Below are positions 41,100-45,796 of a stretch of DNA of 64,000 bases, in pieces. The notes under the pieces were generated by a model. That model saw only the letters and a list, made by a program, of their open reading frames with translations. It made no database searches and was not told the origin of the DNA. The stretch is taken from NCBI RefSeq assembly GCF_003751805.1, contig NZ_RKHQ01000001.1:744001-808000 (forward strand). Direction: 5' to 3'. Source of the DNA: Salana multivorans. Its GTDB lineage: Bacteria > Actinomycetota > Actinomycetes > Actinomycetales > Beutenbergiaceae. Numbering within the stretch: the first letter of the stretch is position 1; each line of letters starts with the position of its first letter. A program made the position numbers and the translations under genes.

Positions 41100-41564
41100 T
41101 CAGGCGGCGGTGCCGGGCGGAGCCGTCGGGTCGTCGTCGTCCGTCACCTCGCACCAGTGCTGGACCAGGAGGGCGACGACGACGAGGCCGACGGCGAGCG
41201 CCGCCGTGACGGCCCCGACGACGACGTCCGACCGCGCCGCGGCGGCGCCGAGCTGGTCGAGCAGCGCCACGACCTGGGCGAGGCCGGCGCCGACCATCGC
41301 GGCGCCGACGAACGCGCCCGACACCGCGAGCGCGGCCACCCGGGACGCGGCGATCGCATCCATCGACGACTTCCCCGCGACGAACGAGCGCACGCGCCAG
41401 CCGAGCACGAGCAGGACGAGGGCGAACGCCCCGACCAGCACGGGGATGATCGCCGGCGGCGGCAGCACGATGCCGCTGGACTGCAGCCAGCGCAGCGCGA
41501 GGAGGACGACGACGAACGCGCTCACCGCCGTCCCGGCGAGGGGAAGCGCTCGCGCCTTGATCAT
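41100..41564 (-). CDS. DUF3180 membrane protein
   Basis: 154 residues with four predicted membrane helices (AVSAFVVVLLALRWL; AIIPVLVGAFALVLLVLGW; VAALAVSGAFVGAAMVGAGL; VVVGAVTAALAVGLVVVALL). DUF3180 genes commonly follow folK in actinobacteria, which is how this position helps identify the gene before it. The SRVAALAVSGAFVGA helix is the most recognisable part. Start ATG at 41564, 28 nt after the upstream stop. Function unknown. Confidence 0.86.
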   Translation of the reverse strand: MIKARALPLAGTAVSAFVVVLLALRWLQSSGIVLPPPAIIPVLVGAFALVLLVLGWRVRSFVAGKSSMDAIAASRVAALAVSGAFVGAAMVGAGLAQVVALLDQLGAAAARSDVVVGAVTAALAVGLVVVALLVQHWCEVTDDDDPTAPPGTAA

Positions 41565-41592
41565 CGCCGGTTCACCCCGGTGACCGCGCGGC

Positions 41593-43407
41593 TCACTCGA
41601 GCCAGTCGAGGGCGAGCCACTTGACGTCGCCGGCATCGGGGGCCGTCTGGGCGAGGACCGACACCGGCCCGCCCCCGAGCCCGGGGAGGACCGCGGCTGG
41701 CTGGAGCTGTGCCCACGGGGCGAGGACGGCCGCGCTCTGGTGCGCGCCGGGGAGCGGGAGGGTGACGCCGTTGAACTCGCCGACCATCCCCTCGATGCTC
41801 AGCACCTCGACCTCCGCCTGTCGGCCGACGACGGCGTCCTGGCACATCGCCTCGAGCTCCAGCGGCGGCTGGGTCGTGCTGATCGCGACGATGGCCGTGT
41901 AGAGCTCGCCGCCGCCGCGCACGGTCCGCGCGAGGGGCGAGACGTCGGTGACCGTGATCGCCGAGGCCGCCCGGAGCGCCCCGACGACACCGGCGAGCTG
42001 CTGCTTGCCGTCCGAGACGGTCGAGGACAGGACGAGCAGCCCCGGCAGCGGCGCGCTGCGCGAGGGTCGCCGCACGGGAGCGGCGACGGTCTGGACGGGC
42101 ACCTCGCCGAGGTGCGCCTGGTTGACGGCGTCCACCTCGAGATCGGCGTCGATCGCGTCGAGATCGTCCTGCGCCGCCTCGGCCTCGTCGTCGGTGGCCT
42201 CGTCGTCGGCCGCGAGCGCCTGGTCGGGGGTCGGCTCGGCGGCCTCGTCCGCCTCGGGCGGGATGTCCTGCGACGCCTCCGTGACCCGCGCCCACGCCGG
42301 CGGGGCGGCCTGCGCCCCGAGGCCGGCGTCCGCGGGAACGCCGAGCGCCGGCGGGACGAGCGGTGGGACGACGAGCTCGGCGTCGGGCTCGACGGCGAGC
42401 GCCGCGTGCTGCGCCGACGCGCTCACGGCGGGCTCGGCGGCGATCTCCTCGTCGGCCTCGGTCGCCAGGCGATCCGCCTCGTCGTGCTCGTCGAGCCGCT
42501 CCGCGTCCTGGATGCCCTCGACGTCGGAGGCGCTCGCCTCGTCGGCCTGCGCGACCTCCGCGAGGTGACCGACGGCGACGTCGTCACCCTCCGCGTCGTC
42601 CGCCTCGGCCGCCTCGCCGACGGCGCGCCCGGTCGCCGCGCCGACGGCGTGATCGATCTCGGCGAAGTCGTCCTGCGCCGCCTCGGCGTCGTCGTCGAAC
42701 GCCTCGTCGTCGGCCTCGACCGTCCGGTCCGGCGTCGGGACGCCCGCGGCGGCCGCCTCGTGGTGCGCCGCCTCGCTCACCCGCGGCCACGCCGGGACGG
42801 GGACGGGGGGCGCCGTCGGCTCGGGGATCCAGTCGGCGGCCGGCGACGCGGCGACGGGGGCGGCGGCAGCGACGACGGGGGCAACGGCCGGCGCGATGGC
42901 CGGCAGGGCGGCGGCGACGGCCGGCGGCTCGGCGACCGGCTCCGGCGCGTCAGCCGGCCGCGGCTCGGGCGCGAGGACCGGCTCCGGCGCCTCGCGCTCG
43001 GGAGCCGCCGCGGTGACCGCGCCCACCCCGACCGCACCAGCACCAGCACCAGCACCCTCGGACACCGGCACGACGACCGCCGACGGCGCCGTGGCCCCCG
43101 CGCGCTCGATCGACACCTCGACGGCCTGGACGGGCACGCCGAGCGAGGCCTCCGGCCGGTTGAGCAGCACGACGACCCGGGCGAGAGCGCCGTCCGTCGC
43201 GTGCACCGCCGCGGCGATCCGGTCGGCGCGCTCGGCGAGCGAGGACGTCGGCGCGGCGAGCGCCTCGGCCGCGGCCGAGGCGACGGCGGCCAGGTCCGGC
43301 TCGTGGGCCGAGTCGATGACGATGTCGGCGAGGAAGGGCTCGTGGTCGCCCGGCTCACCCAGTGCGCCGCGCCCCGCGAGGCCGAGGATTCGGTAGGTGT
43401 CGGTCAC
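41593..43407 (-). CDS. FolB-like/FolK-like fused protein with long acidic linker, probably a pseudoenzyme
   Basis: 604 residues in three parts. Residues 1-105 align with dihydroneopterin aldolase FolB (YRILGLAGRGALGEPGDHEP; SLAERADRIAAAV; VQAVEVSIER), but the catalytic Lys of HKP is replaced (LLNRPEA) and the Tyr region is deleted. Residues 446-604 align with HPPK/FolK (GLLVLSSTVSDG; TDVSPLARTVRGGGELYTAIVAI; GVTLPLPGAHQSAAVLAPWAQL): the Mg-binding DxD is ExE (AEVEVL), LPHP is LPLP, the following Arg is Ala, and the RWGPR loop is lost. Between them lies an Ala/Pro/Asp/Glu-rich linker with a duplicated module. Start GTG at 43407, 6 nt after TAGGCT. Homology is clear; enzymatic activity seems unlikely. 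Confidence 0.75.
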   Translation of the reverse strand: MTDTYRILGLAGRGALGEPGDHEPFLADIVIDSAHEPDLAAVASAAAEALAAPTSSLAERADRIAAAVHATDGALARVVVLLNRPEASLGVPVQAVEVSIERAGATAPSAVVVPVSEGAGAGAGAVGVGAVTAAAPEREAPEPVLAPEPRPADAPEPVAEPPAVAAALPAIAPAVAPVVAAAAPVAASPAADWIPEPTAPPVPVPAWPRVSEAAHHEAAAAGVPTPDRTVEADDEAFDDDAEAAQDDFAEIDHAVGAATGRAVGEAAEADDAEGDDVAVGHLAEVAQADEASASDVEGIQDAERLDEHDEADRLATEADEEIAAEPAVSASAQHAALAVEPDAELVVPPLVPPALGVPADAGLGAQAAPPAWARVTEASQDIPPEADEAAEPTPDQALAADDEATDDEAEAAQDDLDAIDADLEVDAVNQAHLGEVPVQTVAAPVRRPSRSAPLPGLLVLSSTVSDGKQQLAGVVGALRAASAITVTDVSPLARTVRGGGELYTAIVAISTTQPPLELEAMCQDAVVGRQAEVEVLSIEGMVGEFNGVTLPLPGAHQSAAVLAPWAQLQPAAVLPGLGGGPVSVLAQTAPDAGDVKWLALDWLE

Positions 43408-43413
43408 AGCGCC

Positions 43414-43419
43414 AGCCTA
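43414..43419 (-). promoter_or_regulatory. -10 box of a leaderless promoter for the FolB/FolK-like gene
   Basis: TAGGCT on the minus strand, 6 nt before the GTG start at 43407. It lies downstream of the ftsH terminator, implying independent expression. Confidence 0.55.
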
Positions 43420-43520: not shown

Positions 43521-45575
<2,055 letters not shown>

Positions 45576-45623
45576 GTGCGGGGTCTCTCCCCCACCCTTC
45601 TCGTAGGACACACCAGGGGCGAC

Positions 45624-45629
45624 GCTATA
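45624..45629 (-). promoter_or_regulatory. ftsH: Candidate ftsH -10 box
   Basis: TATAGC on the minus strand, about 48 nt before the ftsH ATG, leaving a leader with GGGGGAGAG. No clear -35. Confidence 0.4.
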
Positions 45630-45796
45630 CGACCCAGCCGCACGCACCCCGTCCGATGCGCCGTTGTTCGCCACGGGCAGGACGAGCGTCCGGGCGAGCA
45701 CCCGGACGAGGGCCCACGTGAGTCAACGTCGGGGTCCGGCCACCGGTTCCCGCCACCGAGCGCGACCTCGTGACGCTCCCCCTAGGGTTGACCCCC

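Follow-up and report, generated by a model that had tools for sequence, protein, structure and literature searches.

The FolB-FolK fusion gene lying between ftsH and a DUF3180 gene in Salana multivorans is very probably catalytically dead and kept by selection for something other than making folate. The gene occurs in a 64,000-nucleotide stretch of the chromosome (contig NZ_RKHQ01000001.1, positions 744,001 to 808,000 of the forward strand), hereafter called the window, and its features are listed in Table 1. Comparison of its residues with those of working relatives identifies its product as a probable double pseudoenzyme, in which the catalytic residues of both enzymes have been lost and loss of both activities is predicted. 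The initial annotation had already seen in it a pseudoenzyme retained for some new task. This proposal is supported by the lack of an intact catalytic set, the rejection of omega = 1, the absence of FolE, FolP, and FolK from the rest of the genome, and the occurrence in another family, again at this locus, of degenerate FolK domains that form a lineage of their own.

Table 1 Features of the fusion locus, in window positions.
Feature	Position	Strand	Remarks
Degenerate FolB-FolK fusion, 604 aa	41593..43407	minus	GTG start; stop 41593-41595
FolB-like domain, residues 1-105	43093..43407	minus	Alignment, AlphaFold, 1sql match
Linker, long, acidic, Ala/Pro-rich, predicted disordered	42052..43092	minus	354 aa by motif borders, net charge -64
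FolK (HPPK)-like domain, residues 453-604	41596..42051	minus	Alignment, 4crj match, column counts
TAGGCT, -10-like element	43414..43419	minus	Putative leaderless-type promoter, from sequence comparison; starts -12 before GTG (-12 to -7)
ftsH	43521..45701	minus	113 nt between ftsH stop and fusion
DUF3180 protein	41100..41636	minus	PF11377, 67.4 bits; first start overlaps fusion

Residues and predicted folds of the fusion

We compared the five degenerate proteins whose frames are open with seven working relatives, drawn from the 17 genomes of the family that have an HPPK match. In the FolK-like domain, the DxD motif has become ExE in the window, as first annotated; across the five open members the first Asp is replaced by E, T, E, E, and R, and the second by E in every case. 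LPHP likewise reads LPLP in the window, and the His is retained by only one of the five (G004). The next Arg had been read as Ala, a small error, since the Arg directly after LPHP, present in six of the seven working relatives, is Gly in the window (LPLPG) and Gly or Asp among the five, while the following Arg is Ser in the window. The RWGPR loop is indeed missing: where the relatives have their Arg/Trp loop, 12 columns of the alignment are empty in the window, and 12-14 across the five open members. These also show SAA or SAT in place of RAF, and TAI, TAV, or SAV in place of N(A/T)V.

The FolB-like domain is degraded in a similar way. The alignment agrees with the annotated change of HKP to NRP, the catalytic Lys being replaced by R, Q, R, R, and R in the five open members, and with the loss of the Tyr segment, of which 11 residues are deleted. 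TVxY has Leu instead of its Tyr in all five open members, the window included; the HGV/ER segment is lost in the window, and HGV in all five. The roles assigned to these residues are those established for HPPK and DHNA. Neither end is given an intact catalytic set by the alignments; such a set would have spoken against the original proposal. Other positions are kept: 14 columns on the FolB side and 28 on the FolK side show a single residue throughout the 12 sequences, including most of the C-terminal motif GG.V..LA..A.D...V.WLALDW, which is retained in the FolK-like domain of the window.

The single frame of 604 codons reported at first is confirmed, and we add its orientation, which had not been given. 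Its start appears to be shared, as the other four open members all begin with GTG at the same motif; three of these four end where the window fusion ends, and G004 is 13 residues longer. The presence of FolB-like and FolK-like ends in one frame is supported by two predicted folds and by Pfam matches at both ends that stay below cut-off, namely FolB (PF02152, 15.6 bits, E 0.023, residues 37-101, cut-off 31.8 bits) and HPPK (PF01288, 15.3 bits, E 0.026, residues 459-570, cut-off 25.7 bits). Among NCBIfam models folB alone matches the fusion, with 12.8 bits, and an HPPK profile search of the whole window genome gave no match. The lack of a significant FolB or FolK profile match had been named as an argument against the proposal; the profile scores do remain under their cut-offs, but the predicted folds match strongly. 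An AlphaFold model of the fusion, built from 12 aligned sequences, has high confidence at both ends and not in the middle. Residues 452-599 of this model adopt the HPPK fold, matching HPPK of S. aureus (4crj) with Z 21.5 and rmsd 1.9 over 144 aligned residues. The N-terminal domain modelled alone reaches a pLDDT of 82.5; its residues 2-104 adopt the T-fold of the dihydroneopterin aldolases in this model, with a match to 1sql (Z 14.8, rmsd 2.0, 103 aligned). The kinship of the two ends to FolB and FolK is thus secured by predicted structure.

The fusion shares its domain order and the two predicted folds with known bifunctional FolB-FolK enzymes, such as SulD of Streptococcus pneumoniae (PDB 2cg8, itself among the structure matches) and, within the window's own family, the motif-intact fusions of Ruania and Occultella. 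Compared to working FolB-FolK enzymes, the window's clade lacks the catalytic residues and the substrate loop, as well as folE and folP, and has a much longer linker (219-354 aa in the five open members, 57-92 aa in the seven working relatives), with a net charge of -32 to -64 as opposed to -3 to -13. Tandem repeats in the window linker are short. Six of seven working FolB-FolK fusions (L067-L072) have long low-complexity C-terminal tails of 87-417 aa; the tails of these motif-intact fusions close with P[RK]W..[LVI]R, and the window linker has a similar W.P...P.W..V stretch.

Loss of the folate pathway around the gene

The window genome (G000, 3.89 Mb, 100% complete) was placed among 24 genomes of its family, of which 17 have an HPPK match and seven do not. 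In profile searches, FolE and FolP are both absent from exactly six of the 24 (G000, G004, G005, G009, G013, and G017), and these six also lack HPPK. The seventh genome without HPPK is G001, a fragmented assembly (580 contigs, 89% complete) in which FolE and a FolP are still present. DHFR and FolC were found in all 24 genomes. Since DHFR and FolC are kept where FolE, FolP, and FolK are absent, the six hosts look, from their gene content, like folate salvagers. A search for the ECF importer FolT, which was insensitive, its control being detected in 4 of 14 and above the cut-off in none, gave no family genome over the cut-off among the 24 and no match in the six. We also observe that DHFR (contig C1 of the window genome, 2469707-2470177) scores 87-131 bits in the six pathway-less genomes, compared to 139-167 bits in the 18 others of the family; it seems to be relaxed or altered after the loss of de novo synthesis.

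The degenerate fusion is matched in all six of these pathway-less genomes, with open frames in five and a broken one in G017; FolC and DUF3180 are also broken in the G017 assembly, and an assembly error is the likely cause. The FtsH tree (19 rows) groups the six genomes in one clade (100/99), beside G007, whose genes are motif-intact. Given the common absence of folE and folP and the same deletions in the five open members, we take the catalytic loss to be ancestral, and it looks ancestral to a clade of four genera. Serinibacter arcticus (G013, L073) and Miniimonas arenae (G005, L074) are among its members. In a scan of 65 named loci, a biased sample selected for conserved motifs, DxD is kept in 63 (53 by pattern and 10 by eye), and the only two without it are L073 and L074. 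Scanning genome contigs for close relatives with the single protein retrieved none; the scan based on the alignment did find relatives. In the whole order, 368 of 396 genomes have an HPPK match, some of them weak, and the weak match of G026 reads as degenerate; working enzymes are thus present in 368 genomes at most.

Gene order is conserved around the fusion. In the working relatives it is ftsH, folE and folP, folB-folK, and DUF3180, so that their FolB-FolK gene occupies the same place, 3' of ftsH and 5' of DUF3180, as the window fusion, whose locus has lost folE and folP. The degenerate fusion lies between ftsH and DUF3180 in the window and in the five other loci of the clade, with one inserted gene in G017. 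This insertion (L065:3279-6314), between ftsH and the fusion and on the opposite strand, is a gene of 1011 aa with glycosyl hydrolase family 20 domains. DUF3180 members were found in 24 of 25 genomes tested, and in the window an ATG at 41564 may be the real start of the DUF3180 gene. The initial annotation had also given the fusion its own leaderless-type promoter, which we consider supported by conserved position: a TANNNT element (TAGGCT, TAGGGT, or TACGCT) starts 12 or 13 nt before the GTG in all six clade genomes, for a background of 0.00034 per base and strand in the window. In the seven working relatives, the 25 nt ahead of the candidate FolB starts contain no TANNNT. A sigma-70 scan found no promoter, and the -10 element came from the comparison instead.

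The two folds being predicted as kept, and the hosts looking like folate salvagers, the fusion might still bind a pterin or a nucleotide and, for example, sense salvaged folate. We consider this unlikely, because the FolK residues that align with the pocket are changed at N(A/T)V and RAF, the W/R loop is deleted, and FolB has Leu for its Tyr and Arg or Gln for its Lys.

Degenerate FolK domains in a second family

A similar situation is found in a second family (f4), probably Bifidobacteriaceae. A FolK-domain model was applied to 14 of the 22 HPPK-less genomes outside the window's family, and 11 of these 14, all from f4, have a match at E <= 0.01. Three of the 11 matches are weak (G260, G242, and G057, E 6e-7 to 7e-5). 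All 11 match a model of the second family better than the first FolK-domain model, five of them being among the sequences from which it was built. In each of the eleven loci the order is ftsH, degenerate gene, and DUF3180, with DUF3180 adjoining the FolK match. The first two genes form one ORF in G242, a genome of 1.5 Mb, where FtsH (AAA and M41 in Pfam) is in frame with the degenerate FolK in 953 residues (L158:745-3606, minus strand). The three of the 14 with no FolK-like match are G071, G187, and G081. In G071 and G187 (0.8-0.9 Mb), DUF3180 directly follows ftsH, which indicates that neither partner strictly needs the fusion; G081 has no DUF3180 match either.

In the 30 best-scoring f4 loci, the matched domain keeps neither DxD (0/30) nor PHP (0/30). 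The FolB half is less uniformly degraded, TVxY being kept in 6 of 13 degenerate proteins; this motif reading used the TVxY, DxD, and PHP columns, as the HKP and HGV patterns, on inspection by eye, matched unrelated places in a few proteins. Two of three f4 degenerate proteins that were scanned pass the Pfam cut-off for FolB. Several arrangements occur. G162 and G215 have a second FolK domain behind FolB-FolK, and G224 has an intact FolB-FolK and a separate degenerate FolB-FolK, the latter following ftsH and set apart from DUF3180 by folE, folP, and the intact gene. The FolK' model matches 158 of 164 f4 genomes, the six misses all belonging to one genus with genomes of 0.6-0.9 Mb. As this model also matches intact FolK, and as its individual matches are listed in part, we rejected them as a family-wide count of degenerate FolK.

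A motif-intact FolK precedes the degenerate domain within one ORF in 20 of the 30 best-scoring f4 loci. Such FolB-FolK-FolK' fusions would fit a domain that serves folate enzymes as a subunit, either regulatory or structural, but the degenerate gene persists in HPPK-less genomes, and we regard this role as quite improbable.

A FolK tree of 39 domains places the window's clade (100/100) inside the intact FolK of its own and neighboring families (100/99), and the degenerate f4 domains apart from it (88/93). One common origin of both degenerate groups is not favoured. The tree has long branches and its finer placement is unsure, including whether the f4 domains arose from f4's own FolK; the position of the window's clade on the side of Jonesia has a support of 81/47, at a point where long branches meet.

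Selection on the fusion and its possible role

A dN/dS near 1, which would have argued against retention, does not describe the five open members: omega = 1 is rejected for both domains (2dlnL 155, FolB-like; 303, FolK-like) in a codon model whose branch lengths are saturated (dS) and whose omega values, themselves unreliable, were set aside. Between G009 and G013, two genomes of the same genus, identity is 77% and 81% in the domains and 42% in the linker. For this pair dN is 0.12-0.13 in the domains, about three times the 0.04 of ftsH and hpt, suggesting a constraint that is real but weaker than on the neighbors. In f4, nine non-independent close pairs from seven genes have unsaturated dS (0.14-0.59) and omega of 0.105-0.203, and omega = 1 is rejected in all nine (2dlnL 32-129); the neighboring genes have omega of 0.003-0.018 (ftsH) and 0.030-0.154 (DUF3180). 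The fusion has the appearance of a pseudoenzyme that purifying selection, less strict than for ftsH, retains for a task outside folate synthesis.

Some of these observations would also suit a relic, that is, a frame decaying neutrally since the pathway was lost and not yet broken: all six genomes are without FolE, FolP, and FolK, the frame is broken in G017, the linker diverges fast, and the domains outpace ftsH. We find this very hard to reconcile with a frame that is open in five genomes of four genera, with the rejection of omega = 1 in both families, with the invariance across the five open members of 39 columns in the FolB-like domain and 42 in the FolK-like one, and with a promoter element of its own in six of six genomes. 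Equally improbable is that translation alone matters, with the open frame letting ribosomes reach DUF3180, which lies closely 3' of the gene in the window and five other clade genomes and follows the degenerate domain in 29 of the 30 best-scoring f4 loci, because this accounts neither for the conservation of N-terminal residues nor for the contrast between domains and linker, and the separate G224 copy does not adjoin DUF3180.

Retention for a new job thus remains our preferred reading, and from selection together with recurrence we infer that this job is a second, non-catalytic one. Comparison shows that the catalytic residues of either enzyme have gone from this FolB-FolK fusion, in a lineage from which folE and folP have disappeared too; that its two domains, whose folds are predicted to persist and between which the acidic linker has expanded and is probably disordered, are kept by purifying selection; that the fusion has a conserved leaderless-type promoter element to itself; and that a second family has a similar case, in part beside an intact FolK. 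More tentatively, and as the likeliest form of the new job, the protein might serve, as an oligomer, as scaffold or adaptor to the membrane module encoded around it, consisting of the FtsH protease and the DUF3180 protein, with the HPPK and FolB cores serving as interaction surfaces and the acidic linker giving reach. This guess comes from the conserved position and the in-frame fusion with FtsH in G242. We hold it to be possible but on balance doubtful, as ftsH and DUF3180 persist in the smallest genomes where no such protein is matched, and as a gene is inserted between ftsH and the fusion in G017.

Pseudoenzymes keep a fold and a constrained sequence after catalysis is lost, PDX1.2 being an example from a vitamin pathway. 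The window fusion differs from pseudoenzymes in general in that a single chain combines two enzymes of the same pathway and has outlasted that pathway, and in that a second family has a comparable case at this locus. In the open PMC literature, our search found no account of a FolB or FolK pseudoenzyme, and no paper on DUF3180. The closest description is that of Bifidobacterium longum in 2007, a FolB with "internal duplication of FolK" (PMC1971073), in which a second FolK lies behind FolB-FolK as in G162 and G215; the available text of that paper notes the internal duplication alone and mentions neither the loss of catalytic residues nor survival beyond the pathway. In the accessible part of PMC5897740, "pseudoenzyme" occurs only in references on PDX1.2, and one title in the reference list concerns a role of plant HPPK/DHPS that is independent of folate. 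In B. adolescentis, folB/K is treated as present or missing by a 2025 study (PMC12646000), in the portion available.

A broader reading, in which we have nearly as much belief as doubt, is that FolB-FolK has an old, folate-independent second function at the actinobacterial ftsH-DUF3180 locus. The enzyme would have been stripped down to this function upon folate loss, at least twice, and in bifidobacteria the function would have been handed to a dedicated duplicate domain beside the working enzyme. As the two degenerate f4 proteins that pass the FolB cut-off illustrate, FolB annotation can overstate folate synthesis. The DUF3180 family gains a candidate partner. If our reading is true, a classic protein of the antifolate pathway carries a second job that keeps its fold after both catalysis and pathway are gone, and this would have happened more than once.
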